Origin: Methanovulcanius yangii
GTDB taxonomy: Archaea; Halobacteriota; Methanomicrobia; Methanomicrobiales; Methanomicrobiaceae
Length of the DNA stretch: 64,000 nt
NCBI RefSeq assembly: GCF_018687785.1
Contig: NZ_LTBL01000001.1
Coordinates: 1-64,000, forward strand
Reading direction: 5' to 3'
Made by a program: the position numbers and the translations under genes. Each line of letters begins with the position of its first letter. Position 1 is the first letter of the stretch. Below are positions 55,019 through 64,000 of the stretch, in pieces. A model generated the notes under the pieces. That model had not been told where the DNA came from. It made no database searches and worked only from the letters and a program-made list of their open reading frames with translations.

Positions 55019-55256
55019 ATACGGTGCCTGTCCCCGCCAATTTTTTTAATCGGCAGGCTGCGCCTCTGAAAAATTGGGAAATTGTACCCTTTTTTGCATG
55101 CAGATAGTGTAACCAGCCACGGATGAGTTGTCATCAGGGCATACGGTGCAATCAGGGTTTCATCGAAAGCCGGCAGAACCATTATTGGGCGGGGGGACAA
55201 TTCTCCCGTAACCTCAGACGGGATGATCAATGTCGGACTGAGGGGGGGTGATCCTG

Positions 55257-56033
55257 ATGAAGAAACATTTTTTAGTTGGAGGAATTCTGATACTTGCCGT
55301 TCTGGTTCTTGCCGGGACGGCGGTGGCGGCACCGCCCGAAGATCAGAAACTTTCGGTGGAGGAGATCCGTGGAGAACTGGTTGCGATTCAAAGCGAGATT
55401 GATGAGATCAACGAGCACCTCGACGAAGGCGCAGATCTCAGTGAAATCGAGGCGCGAATCAGCACGATTGAAGCGAACATTACTGTACTGGAGGGAGCTC
55501 TTGCATTGCTGGAAGGGAATGTGAGCACGCTCGAAGGGGATATGCAGACCCTTACGGGGACGGAATATGCCACGGAAGTGGCCGGAGGTTCACAGGCACA
55601 TGAGAACCGTGCGCCCTATATGGGGCTGAATTATATCATCTGTATGCAGGGACTGTATCCAGCACGCTCCTTTGCTTCGGCAAGTGGCGATGACGAGGGT
55701 CTTGTTGTTGCAAGTGGCATCGGCGAAGGGACTCTGGGAGAGGTGACCCTCTTTGCCGGTAATTTTGCCCCCCGGAACTGGGCGTTCTGTCAGGGGCAGC
55801 TACTTCCGATTAGCCAGAATGCGGCCCTGTTCTCCATCCTCGGGACAACCTACGGTGGAGACGGGAGAACCACGTTTGCTCTCCCTGACCTGAGGGGCCG
55901 GGTGGTGGTAGGAGATGGCTACGGGCCGGGGCTCTCGTCTGTCCGTCTGGGGCAGACGGGCGGTGTGGAACAGGTGACATTAACCACCAGTCAACTTCCC
56001 GCCCACCTTCACGGGTTCTCCCTGTATCTCTGA
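55257..56033 (+). CDS. Secreted coiled-coil protein with phage tail-collar domain
   Basis: A 258-residue protein. It has a signal peptide (GILILAVLVLAGTAVAA), then a coiled coil of heptads (residues 35-100; IRGELVAIQSEIDEINEHL and further leucine/isoleucine heptads), then NYIICMQGLYPAR. Last comes a tail-collar (MdpB/phage short-fibre) domain with WAFCQGQLLPISQNAAL, GTTYGGDGRTTFALPDLRG and LPAHLHGF. The domain is known in phage fibres and in secreted bacterial proteins. The coiled coil suggests a trimer. A GGGGGGGTGAT ribosome site precedes the ATG at 55257. Confidence 0.88.
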   Translation: MKKHFLVGGILILAVLVLAGTAVAAPPEDQKLSVEEIRGELVAIQSEIDEINEHLDEGADLSEIEARISTIEANITVLEGALALLEGNVSTLEGDMQTLTGTEYATEVAGGSQAHENRAPYMGLNYIICMQGLYPARSFASASGDDEGLVVASGIGEGTLGEVTLFAGNFAPRNWAFCQGQLLPISQNAALFSILGTTYGGDGRTTFALPDLRGRVVVGDGYGPGLSSVRLGQTGGVEQVTLTTSQLPAHLHGFSLYL

Positions 56034-56323: not shown

Positions 56324-57448
56324 CTACCTTTCAGACGGTTCATCCACCGGCACCCTGCACTCCCGGAGAAGCTCTGGATAATCATCAAACCACACGGCGT
56401 CCGGGTTGCGGGGGAATACCATGAACTTCCCAATATCCTCCCGGCGGGCGGCCTGATGGTACTTGAAGTAGATGCACTCATCGTCGAGCCCGATGGTGCG
56501 GATCTTTCCCGTCCGGTGCGACATCGCAAAGACCGGCCGTTTCGCAAGCCCTGAACAGTGCGATTTTGCCTGCTCAAATATCTGATATGCCTCTTCCACG
56601 GGAACGGCAAAGTGGCGGTTTCCAAGAGTCGGGCGGCACTGGAAGATATAATACGGGGCGACACCTGCAAAGGAGAGGTTTCGCAGGAGGTCGGCGAGGA
56701 CACTGGGGTTGTCATTGATCCCGCGGAGGAGTGGTGTCTGGTTGGCGAGGATGGCGCCTGCCTTCTGGAGGAGGTCGAGTCCCTCGATAGCCACATCCGT
56801 CAGTTCCCGCGGATGCACGAAATGGGTGACGACATAGATGCGCTGTTCCGGGGTGCTGAACTTCCGGATCATCTCCAGCAGCGAGGGGTCGTTCATCACC
56901 CGGTACGGGTTTGTGACGGGGATCCGTGATCCGATGCGGACGATCTTCACATGCTCGATAGCCCTGACTTCCCGGATGATCGCCTCAAGACGCCGGGTGG
57001 AGAGAAAGAGCGGGTCCCCGCCGGAAAGAAGAACGTTCGTTATCTCCGGGTGGGCCCTTATATATGCAAGTCCCTGCGAGAGATCCCGTGCCACCTCGGT
57101 GTTCATCCGCATGAAGAGGCGCTTTCGAAAGCAGTAGCGGCAGTACCCCGCACAGCGGTTGGTAAGGAGGAGAAGGGCGGTCTGGTCATATTTATGCTCG
57201 ACGCCGGGAGCAACCACATAGGCACTCTCCTGCGAAGCATCAAGGCTTCCCCATTCCTCAAGCTCCTTCGGGTCGGGGATGGCAATCCTTCGGATGGGGT
57301 CGTCCGGGTCCTCCCAGTTAATAAGGGAGAGATAGTAGGTGTTTGAGCGAAAAGGGAATTTTTCTGTCACCTTTCCGAGGCGGAGATGTTCTTCTTCAGA
57401 CAACTGGGGAATGTCCCTGATATTTGTGAGATATTTTGGTCCGCCCAT
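56324..57448 (-). CDS. KamA-family radical SAM protein
   Basis: A 374-residue lysine-2,3-aminomutase-like enzyme. The cluster motif is CAGYCRYCFRKRLFM and the family phrase is [11 protein letters not shown]. Unlike AblA at 24304, it lacks the PGGAGK segment; SHRTGKIRTIG is the only similar lysine, so PLP binding is uncertain. It is shorter and has no acetyltransferase next to it, so it is not a second osmolyte gene. The ATG at 57448 follows a GGTGCC. The substrate is unknown. Confidence 0.85.
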   Translation of the reverse strand: MGGPKYLTNIRDIPQLSEEEHLRLGKVTEKFPFRSNTYYLSLINWEDPDDPIRRIAIPDPKELEEWGSLDASQESAYVVAPGVEHKYDQTALLLLTNRCAGYCRYCFRKRLFMRMNTEVARDLSQGLAYIRAHPEITNVLLSGGDPLFLSTRRLEAIIREVRAIEHVKIVRIGSRIPVTNPYRVMNDPSLLEMIRKFSTPEQRIYVVTHFVHPRELTDVAIEGLDLLQKAGAILANQTPLLRGINDNPSVLADLLRNLSFAGVAPYYIFQCRPTLGNRHFAVPVEEAYQIFEQAKSHCSGLAKRPVFAMSHRTGKIRTIGLDDECIYFKYHQAARREDIGKFMVFPRNPDAVWFDDYPELLRECRVPVDEPSER

Positions 57449-57624
57449 GATACAGGCACCAATCTCCCTTTTGGTATTTGACAATTCCTGTGGAATGAAT
57501 GATCGCCCATTCCTTTCATGGGAATGACCGAAACAGGTGGCTTTCACCTCTCCTCCCTGTCCATGCACGTGGCGACGGCTCTTGAATTCGATGGCAAAAA
57601 AAAATGAAAAATGTTGGAATAGTG

Positions 57625-62342: not shown

Positions 62343-62585
62343 ATGACTGCTGAACCAGAGGCCGACGCCGAACTAGACTGTATCGGCATGTTCTGCCCGA
62401 TGCCGATTGCCATGACCAGGGAGGAGATTGAAAAGATTGCCCCCGGGCAGGTGCTGAAGGTCGAGGCAGACGACCCGGCGGCCGAGGAGGACATCCTCCG
62501 GTGGGCACGGCGTACCGGGCATGAGATTGTGAAATTTGAGAAGGAGGAGGGAATTATGACCTTCTATATCAGGAGGAAGACGTAA
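62343..62585 (+). CDS. TusA-family sulfur carrier
   Basis: An 80-residue protein of the TusA/SirA fold. LDCIGMFCPMPIAMTREEI has the Cys-Pro-x-Pro motif with the sulfur-bearing Cys18, and an additional Cys13. Family members carry persulfide between desulfurases and acceptors in thiolation or sulfur oxidation. It starts the operon followed immediately (no gap) by the DsrE-like gene and then the NifS-like gene. GAGAGGAGGG precedes the ATG. Confidence 0.92.
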   Translation: MTAEPEADAELDCIGMFCPMPIAMTREEIEKIAPGQVLKVEADDPAAEEDILRWARRTGHEIVKFEKEEGIMTFYIRRKT

Positions 62586-62945
62586 ATGGGGAAGATATTG
62601 TATGTGCAGACCAGCGGCACCGATACGCCGGAGCGGTTGTACGGACCGTTCATCCTCGGGGCGACGGCGGTGGCCATGGACGTCTCGGCATGTATTTTTT
62701 TCATGATCAAGGGCATCACGGTCATGAAAAAAGGTGAGGCGGAGAAGATCCGTATGGGGTCTTTTCCACCACTCCGTGAAGTGATTGATCAGGCGGCGGC
62801 AGCCGGGGTGGATTTTTATGTCTGCGAACAGAGCACCCGGCTTCTGGGGATGGAACGGGGAGACTTCATTGAGGGAGTTCGAATCGCAGGAGCGGCGACC
62901 CTGAATGACCTCGCCCTTGAGGCGGACGCGGTGATCTCATTCTAA
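62586..62945 (+). CDS. DsrE/DsrF-like sulfur relay protein
   Basis: A 119-residue DsrE-fold protein. ILYVQTSGTDTPERLYGPFI begins the fold and FYVCEQSTRLLGM carries Cys80 at the position of the DsrE active cysteine. An additional Cys36 lies in the first helix. DsrE-type proteins accept persulfide from TusA. It begins one base after the tusA-like stop and is followed after 13 bases by the NifS-like gene. The three together make a plausible sulfur-trafficking unit. Confidence 0.9.
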   Translation: MGKILYVQTSGTDTPERLYGPFILGATAVAMDVSACIFFMIKGITVMKKGEAEKIRMGSFPPLREVIDQAAAAGVDFYVCEQSTRLLGMERGDFIEGVRIAGAATLNDLALEADAVISF

Positions 62946-62958
62946 AAGGGGGAGAGGG

Positions 62959-64000
62959 ATGATATATCTGGACCATAGCTCCGCCATGCCGGTCGACGAG
63001 AGGGTGGCTGCCTTTGCCTCTCCCTATCTGATGCAGCACTATGGCAATCCGTCCTCCCTGCACACGCGGGGGCTGGTGGCGAAGCGTGTGCTGGAGGAGG
63101 CACGGGGGAAGGTGGCAAAGCTTATCAATGCGGAGTCTCCGGAGACGATTCTCTTTACCAGCTGTGCCACCGAGTCGAACAACCTGGCCATCCGGGGGAC
63201 GGCACTCCGGAACAATAAAGCGGGGATGAGGGTGGTCTCGTCGGCCGTCGAGCATATCTCGGTCATAAACCCGATGAAAGAGCTTCAAAAGCAGGGATAT
63301 GCGTATGATGTTGTTCCGGTCAGTCCCGAAGGGTATGTGGATCTGGACATGCTGGCAGAGATGGTGACGAAGGATACGGTCGTTACATCGGTCAATTATG
63401 CGAATGACGAGATTGGCACGATCGAACGGATACGCGACGTCAGTCGCATCGTTCATGAAGAGGGTCGGTATCTCCATGTCAATGCGACGGCGGCAGCGGG
63501 ACGAATCCCCGTGGATGTGCAGGCGGACGGGATCGATCTTCTGACACTGTCCTCCAACGACATGTACGGCCCGCGGGGCGCCGCCGCCCTGTATGTCAGA
63601 AAAGGGGTGAAGCTCCAGACGCTTCTTCCCGGCGGCGGGCAGGAACGGGGGATTCGCTCCGGGACGGAGAACCTCTTCGCCATCGCCGGTATGGGGGAGG
63701 CGGCGATGATTGCCGGCCGGGAGATGGGCGCCGAAGGACGCCGCCTCCATGAAATCGCTGGTGCATACCTGAAGGATATACTGATGATCGAGGACGCCCA
63801 CCTGACCGGCCCCGCGACGGGGCGACTCCCCGGCCACCTGAGTTTTCGGTTTGGCAGGATCGAGGGGGAGAGTATCCTCCTCAACCTCGATACGGCTTTT
63901 GGCATCCAGGTGACGACGGGCTCGGCATGTTCGTCCCGGACGCTGGAACCGTCCCATGTCCTCCTTGCCATCGGCCTGAAGCACGAGGAGGCGCACGGCT
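62959..64000 (+). CDS. Cysteine-desulfurase homologue lacking the PLP lysine (partial)
   Basis: 347 residues are present and the frame is open at the window end. The fold matches NifS/IscS: YLDHSSAMPVDERV, SCATESNNLAIRG, SSAVEHISVINPM and GSACSSRTLEPSHVLLAIGL. His99 and the persulfide Cys324 are kept. Where IscS has HVDAxQ, this reads HVNATA (Asn175, Ala178), and the PLP-lysine motif SxHKxxGPKG reads SSNDMYGPRG, with Asp201 in place of Lys. Ordinary PLP chemistry therefore seems impossible. It is the third gene of the TusA-DsrE operon, with GGGGGAGAG before the ATG. It may act as a sulfur-accepting scaffold. Confidence 0.9.
   Translation, partial: MIYLDHSSAMPVDERVAAFASPYLMQHYGNPSSLHTRGLVAKRVLEEARGKVAKLINAESPETILFTSCATESNNLAIRGTALRNNKAGMRVVSSAVEHISVINPMKELQKQGYAYDVVPVSPEGYVDLDMLAEMVTKDTVVTSVNYANDEIGTIERIRDVSRIVHEEGRYLHVNATAAAGRIPVDVQADGIDLLTLSSNDMYGPRGAAALYVRKGVKLQTLLPGGGQERGIRSGTENLFAIAGMGEAAMIAGREMGAEGRRLHEIAGAYLKDILMIEDAHLTGPATGRLPGHLSFRFGRIEGESILLNLDTAFGIQVTTGSACSSRTLEPSHVLLAIGLKHEEAHG

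Follow-up and report, generated by a model that had tools for sequence, protein, structure and literature searches.

The crystal structure of the IscS-IscU complex from Archaeoglobus fulgidus is widely used as a picture of Fe-S cluster assembly. A. fulgidus IscS (IscS 2; PDB 4EB5, 4EB7 and 4HVK, with 4R5F a variant carrying Lys at the site) has no desulfurase activity (PMC7585200; PMC5176006) because its PLP-site Lys is replaced by Asp (PMC7585200); its Cys ligates the [2Fe-2S] cluster held by IscU (PMC7585200; PMC5176006), and PLP is present in the crystal structure (PMC9769115). Another IscS without the lysine, IscS1 of Methanosarcina acetivorans, was published in 2020, and the four genes adjoining iscS1-iscU1 were called unknown function (PMC7585200). 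In Escherichia coli, IscS is the distribution hub from which sulfur flows to TusA and to IscU; the docking sites of these two proteins on IscS lie side by side, overlap and give access to Cys328 (PMC11302665). The E. coli IscS variants K206A, D180G and Q183E each lose activity, and K206A binds some PLP and makes intermediates very slowly (PMC9978102). The minimal ISC system of archaea (MIS, MisS-MisU) has an iscS-iscU core of two genes without carriers like IscA (PMC12442378; PMC12192291), and its cysteine desulfurase is described as active. DsrE3A and TusA exchange sulfur groups (PMC4175335), and the tusA-dsrE2/dsrE3A clusters of sulfur oxidisers adjoin Hdr-like or Dsr oxidation genes.

The window analysed here, a 64,000-nucleotide stretch of the Methanovulcanius yangii genome, ends inside an iscS gene that lacks the lysine codon; the labels iscS* and IscS* are used for such a gene and its protein. 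Genome sequence read past the window end shows a gene unit, tusA–dsrE–iscS*–iscU, with all four genes on the + strand:

62343..62585, + strand: tusA, TusA-family sulfur carrier, 80 aa (PF01206, E=7e-26)
62394-62396, + strand: codon of TusA Cys18 in the CPxP motif (Cys18-Pro19 seen)
62586..62945, + strand: dsrE, DsrE-family sulfur carrier, 119 aa (PF02635, E=8e-19)
62823-62825, + strand: codon of DsrE Cys80, conserved (52/52 neighbours)
62959-64107, + strand: iscS*, 382 aa (PF00266, Aminotran_5, E=2e-64)
63253..63255, + strand: codon of His99 (E. coli His104), kept in 61/61 and 80/80 relatives
63481..63492, + strand: Asn175-Ala176-Thr177-Ala178, replacing DAxQ (alignment with canonical IscS)
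63556..63561, + strand: Asn200-Asp201, replacing the catalytic His-Lys (alignment)
63928..63930, + strand: codon of Cys324, the persulfide or cluster-ligand Cys of the mobile loop, kept in 61/61 and 80/80 relatives
64121-64546, + strand: iscU, 141 aa (PF01592, NifU_N, E=8.5e-50)
655241-656819, about 655 kb, same genome: canonical IscS with intact HK motif, then a second IscU

The dsrE start is the base directly after the tusA stop, gaps of 13 bp separate dsrE from iscS* and iscS* from iscU, and a purine-rich stretch precedes the start codon of each of the four genes. The iscS* frame is unbroken from its ATG at 62959, and the window (to 64000) omits the last 35 residues. The first-pass annotation had named the two upstream genes as TusA- and DsrE-like, which the Pfam matches confirm, and had suggested that IscS* is itself a scaffold; the separate adjoining IscU, hidden by the window end, is more likely to have that role. 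Archaeal structure matches of this IscU include 7C8M and 4EB5 chain C.

The upstream protein belongs to the TusA family by its PF01206 match and conserved CPxP cysteine, but its score does not reach the NCBIfam equivalog cut-off set for TusA of the E. coli type. A selenium role via a YedF-like TusA was rejected: the score falls well short of the cut-off, and M. maripaludis, whose TusAD genes are selenium-regulated, has no IscS. The nearest solved structure for the window DsrE is 3MC3 (SSO1125, DsrE3A type; E=3.5e-18), which is DsrE3A of S. solfataricus (PMC4175335). A TusA beside a DsrE3A-like protein resembles the clusters of sulfur oxidisers, but the carriers here adjoin iscS*-iscU instead of oxidation genes. 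The CX7C pair of DsrE3A is absent since only one Cys is conserved in window-type DsrE proteins, and the neighbours differ from the dihydrolipoamide dehydrogenase linkage of DsrE3A. Elsewhere in the window, the frame at 55248-56033 has a signal-like start, a coiled-coil-like part and, in a methanogen, a C-terminal phage tail-collar-like domain, and the frame at 56324-57568 (- strand) resembles a KamA-type lysine 2,3-aminomutase with a CRYCFRKR motif.

Two proteins served as references for aligning IscS*: A. fulgidus IscS and the canonical paralogue from its own genome, to which it is 38% identical. Equivalent sites are given in E. coli numbering (206, 180, 183, 104 and 328). Asp201 replaces the Schiff-base Lys that holds PLP (E. 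coli 206), Asn175 replaces the Asp that contacts the pyridine nitrogen (E. coli 180) and Ala178 replaces Gln (E. coli 183), exactly the three changes listed by the first-pass annotation. Two more were found: Asn200 for His (E. coli 205) and Ile350, whose codon lies past the window end, for Arg (E. coli Arg354). In E. coli IscS, Arg354 holds the substrate carboxylate. His99, Asn149, Ser198 and Cys324 (E. coli 328, the persulfide Cys) are retained. IscS* shares with canonical IscS/NifS proteins (E. coli IscS, M. acetivorans IscS2 and the 655 kb paralogue) the fold, these residues and an IscU partner; the canonical proteins, in contrast, keep the Lys (23/23), His, Gln, Asp and Arg. With all five equivalents changed, and a score of 387.6 against a NifS cut-off of 530.75, IscS* does not have the features of an active cysteine desulfurase. 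Nor is the unit a MIS system: the iscS-iscU pair is there, but the catalytic residues are missing and two sulfur carriers are added.

The closest solved relative of IscS* is A. fulgidus IscS 2 (4EB5, E=6e-109 over the full length). The two proteins are about half identical and share the SSND-x-YGP-x-G and DAxA signatures, the absence of the PLP-site Lys (Asp201), the mobile-loop Cys (Cys324) and an IscU encoded by the next gene, 13 bp downstream in the window genome and present in the crystal for A. fulgidus. They differ in that A. fulgidus IscS 2 has Asp where IscS* has Asn175, and its locus has dsrE directly upstream and not tusA, although the paralogue locus at 165 kb has both carriers; both A. 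fulgidus copies fall in the IscS* clade. In the genome taken as A. fulgidus, the two lysine-less iscS copies (loci L071 and L086) each have an iscU; these two iscU genes differ at 6 bases yet encode one and the same protein sequence. IscS* is therefore a new member of the known A. fulgidus type, and the first-pass view of an undescribed system does not hold for the protein itself, as a relative with the same signature has been crystallised and reported inactive and M. acetivorans IscS1 has been in print since 2020. The description of the fold as being without PLP is likewise unproven; with PLP seen in the A. fulgidus crystal (PMC9769115) and some still bound by E. coli K206A (PMC9978102), an IscS* free of PLP should not be assumed.

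The loss of catalytic residues is also what a dying enzyme gene would show. Among 141 clade sequences, however, position 201 is Lys in none and Asp in 120, position 200 is Asn in 140, position 178 is Ala in 125 and Gln in 1, and His99 and Cys324 are present in all 141. The change to Asn175 is local, with Asp retained in 48/61 and 76/80 relatives. Close iscS* pairs have dN/dS of 0.05-0.16, and the operon is intact. Since the lysine is missing throughout the clade while His99 and Cys324 are invariant under this constraint, iscS* is neither an error nor a decayed gene, and a decayed, mis-sequenced or frame-shifted iscS is so improbable as to be negligible. This agrees with the first-pass description of a conserved, in-frame desulfurase fold (unbroken over 62959-64107) that keeps His99 and Cys324 and has lost its catalytic residues.

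Linkage was examined in a phylum sample, in which 394 genomes were queried with the protein and 80 loci, besides the window's two, were taken from the block of strong matches. The sample holds 84 IscS genes, 61 lysine-less and 23 with Lys. Site 201 of the lysine-less proteins is Asp in 54, Gln in 5, Glu in 1 and Pro in 1, and all 61 have His99, Cys324 and Asn at 200. TusA and/or DsrE lie upstream of 60 of the 61 genes (both in 45, TusA alone or DsrE alone in some loci), and IscU lies downstream of 60. Beside canonical iscS, TusA/DsrE were found in 0/23 cases and IscU in 12/23, these 23 being mostly the canonical genes most like the query. The difference in TusA/DsrE linkage gives a Fisher p of about 1e-19, for genes that are related by descent: the lysine-less genes form one clade (61 rows, IQ-TREE support 100/99) that includes A. 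fulgidus IscS and lies apart from canonical IscS, so the counts are not independent events. Among neighbours of lysine-less iscS, TusA Cys18 is present in 57/57, DsrE Cys80 in 52/52 and DsrE Cys36 in 1/52, and the IscU set of three Cys plus Asp is complete in 61 of 63 rows; the two exceptions are frames read only in part.

A broader scan covered one genome per species in 84,980 species, from which the best 80 relatives were taken; this set overlaps the phylum sample in some genomes. All 80 are lysine-less (66 Asp, 8 Gln, 3 Ala, 1 Glu, 1 Asn and 1 Gly) and all have His99 and Cys324. TusA or DsrE is upstream in 77/80, and in two of the remaining three loci a contig end cuts the sequence short. 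The hosts include Methanoculleus, Methanothrix, Methanophagales, Methanoperedens, Thermoplasmata, Bathyarchaeota, Hadarchaeum and several bacterial lineages, among them two chromosome-level Deltaproteobacteria bins, while some draft bacterial bins may be misassigned.

Several loci vary on this arrangement. In a Methanoculleus-type subgroup (L061, L066-L070, L214-L221), the lysine is replaced by Gln (in one case by Pro), position 178 is Asp, and dsrE is preceded by two or three tusA-like genes in tandem. At L053 (4495-10687), tusA-dsrE lies about 4 kb from iscS*, with a 2-oxoacid oxidoreductase-like pair and a ferredoxin-like frame between. In eight loci from two archaeal families (L072, L073, L085, L088-L090, L097 and L100), IscU is part of an open frame of 444-467 aa; in L072 (3639-4970, - strand), the one locus checked against Pfam, the remainder of the frame is a thioredoxin-reductase-like FAD domain, with a flavodoxin gene next in line.

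The M. acetivorans locus, recognised by the STGSACFS motif and IscU1 Cys45/72/116 (Table 1 of PMC7585200), has the order tusA, dsrE2-type gene, iscS1, iscU1. As in the window genome, a lysine-less IscS-IscU pair (MA0808/MA0807) has tusA and a DsrE-family gene directly upstream. IscS1 nevertheless differs from IscS* in having Thr for the Lys, Asp for His99 and His for the Gln, in keeping Arg350 and in belonging to its own clade, and IscU1 has a C-terminal FeS_assembly_P domain unlike the IscU of the window genome. Across 30 Methanosarcinaceae loci, Thr at 201, Asp at 99, His at 178 and the retained Cys324 are each seen in 30/30. The DsrE of these loci matches 3PNX and 2QS7 (DsrE2 type), as opposed to the DsrE3A-type 3MC3, and BLASTP aligns just 39 of its residues with the window DsrE. 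The idea that all lysine-less IscS proteins are one type was rejected, as there are two separate clades with different substitutions; the AU test (p=0.29) still allows the lysine to have been lost once. TusA and DsrE are present in 29/30 Methanosarcinaceae loci, in the gene order of the window operon. Together with 60/61 and 77/80 in the first clade and 0/23 beside canonical genes, this strongly bears out the co-occurrence that the first-pass annotation had named as the thing to look for.

The same annotation stated that many methanogens lack a normal cysteine desulfurase. This is not so for the window genome, which has the canonical IscS-IscU pair at 655 kb and one SufB/D-type gene, and a lack of desulfurase in the organism was accordingly rejected as an explanation. 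It does fit the Archaeoglobaceae. The desulfurase motif HK-x-x-GP-x-G, which a divergent desulfurase could escape, was searched in 65 genomes with lysine-less IscS and is absent from 19, all from one family taken as Archaeoglobaceae (19/19). It is present in the other 46, several of which have the SufS-type HKMLGPTG only. A search of the genome taken as A. fulgidus with canonical IscS as query returned the two lysine-less genes, one weak class-V match and nothing else. Because all 19 genomes are without the motif, it is improbable that a canonical IscS or SufS feeds the IscU of Archaeoglobaceae. In methanogens, Fe-S sulfur can derive from sulfide with no need for cysteine (PMC12192291; PMC10500019).

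On balance, tusA-dsrE-iscS*-iscU is probably an Fe-S assembly operon in which a dead desulfurase, IscS*, serves as the sulfur-accepting docking partner of IscU and passes persulfide from TusA/DsrE through Cys324 to IscU. The linkage points to carried sulfur, and not cysteine breakdown by IscS*, as the supply for the clusters. From the gene linkage, residues, operon conservation, carrier cysteines and IscU partner we infer the direction and steps of transfer. Sulfane sulfur would ride on TusA Cys18 and DsrE Cys80 and pass to Cys324, and from there either to IscU or into a [2Fe-2S] cluster forming on it, which Cys324 would ligate transiently. Without the lysine, IscS* cannot start sulfur flow in the usual way, and since TusA, Cys324 and IscU are retained despite its loss, reversed flow is the simplest reading: the IscS-to-TusA flow of E. 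coli would run backwards. The sulfur load of TusA would then not come from IscS*; its source would be the separate canonical IscS in the window genome, and an inorganic one (sulfide, polysulfide or rhodanese) in organisms that, like the Archaeoglobaceae, show no canonical desulfurase. The IscU–thioredoxin-reductase-like frame of eight loci and the L072 flavodoxin fit the need to reduce sulfane sulfur.

In favour of this relay, the carriers lie upstream of 60/61 and 77/80 lysine-less genes and beside none of 23 canonical ones, the sulfur-carrying residues are invariant (IscS* Cys324, TusA Cys18, DsrE Cys80, the three Cys plus Asp of IscU), and a second lysine-less clade with another DsrE type has the same gene order in 29/30 loci. 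Further support comes from the missing desulfurase motif in Archaeoglobaceae, from the neighbouring docking sites of TusA and IscU on E. coli IscS (PMC11302665) and from the sulfur exchange between DsrE3A and TusA (PMC4175335). Against it, His99 is also lost in that second clade and some loci have one carrier only. TusA and DsrE have many clients, including tRNA thiolation and Hdr-like sulfur oxidation, so the linkage may mean a shared sulfur supply to IscU that bypasses Cys324, and the counts overstate independence if IscS* and its operon partners descended as one unit, as may be the case. In the main rival to the reversed relay, which follows the published reading of the A. fulgidus protein, IscS* would be a structural partner and cluster-ligand donor only, free sulfide would feed the cluster, and TusA/DsrE would serve another user such as tRNA thiolation or supply IscU directly. 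The inactive A. fulgidus relative with its Cys on the [2Fe-2S] cluster (PMC7585200; PMC5176006) and the cysteine-independent use of sulfide by methanogens (PMC12192291; PMC10500019) speak for it, but it leaves unexplained why the carriers lie upstream in both lysine-less lineages and beside none of 23 canonical genes, and why the carrier cysteines are invariant. We consider it unlikely, yet a contender to be taken seriously.

IscS* could instead be a slow PLP enzyme that binds PLP without a Schiff base and uses another group as base, taking sulfur from cysteine or another substrate. PLP in the A. fulgidus structure (PMC9769115), the residual PLP and very slow intermediates of E. coli K206A (PMC9978102) and the retained His99 are compatible with such an enzyme; it is improbable given that K206A, D180G and Q183E each inactivate the E. 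coli protein, IscS* is changed at all three sites and at the His205 and Arg354 equivalents, and the A. fulgidus relative is reported inactive. Quite improbable, too, is a distribution hub that receives persulfide from canonical IscS via TusA and whose main clients are thiolation or cofactor enzymes, IscU being only one of those served. E. coli IscS acts as such a hub (PMC11302665) and the window genome has a canonical IscS, but the constant neighbour is IscU (60/61), the loci read show no linked thiolation enzyme, and the operon is kept in organisms without any canonical desulfurase motif.

Counting against the relay, no report of persulfide transfer to any lysine-less IscS was found in the literature, and TusA/DsrE carriers are unmentioned in the accessible literature on A. 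fulgidus IscS. The literature searched, which excludes most subscription journals, yielded no account of the tusA-dsrE-iscS*-iscU association or of its second occurrence in another lineage, and the operon is for this reason described as not found and not as never described. More tentatively than for the window operon, we propose that the unit is a widespread anaerobe system in which persulfide on TusA/DsrE passes via a dead desulfurase to IscU, with no desulfurase step at the assembly site; the carried sulfur is possibly inorganic, and the system was possibly assembled twice with different DsrE types. How Fe-S sulfur is supplied without cysteine in sulfide-grown archaea and other anaerobes is an open question, to which the operon offers a concrete, testable answer. 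A relay of this kind would explain the puzzling inactive IscS of A. fulgidus, and would aid the reading of the many genomes whose annotation lists such genes as active cysteine desulfurases.
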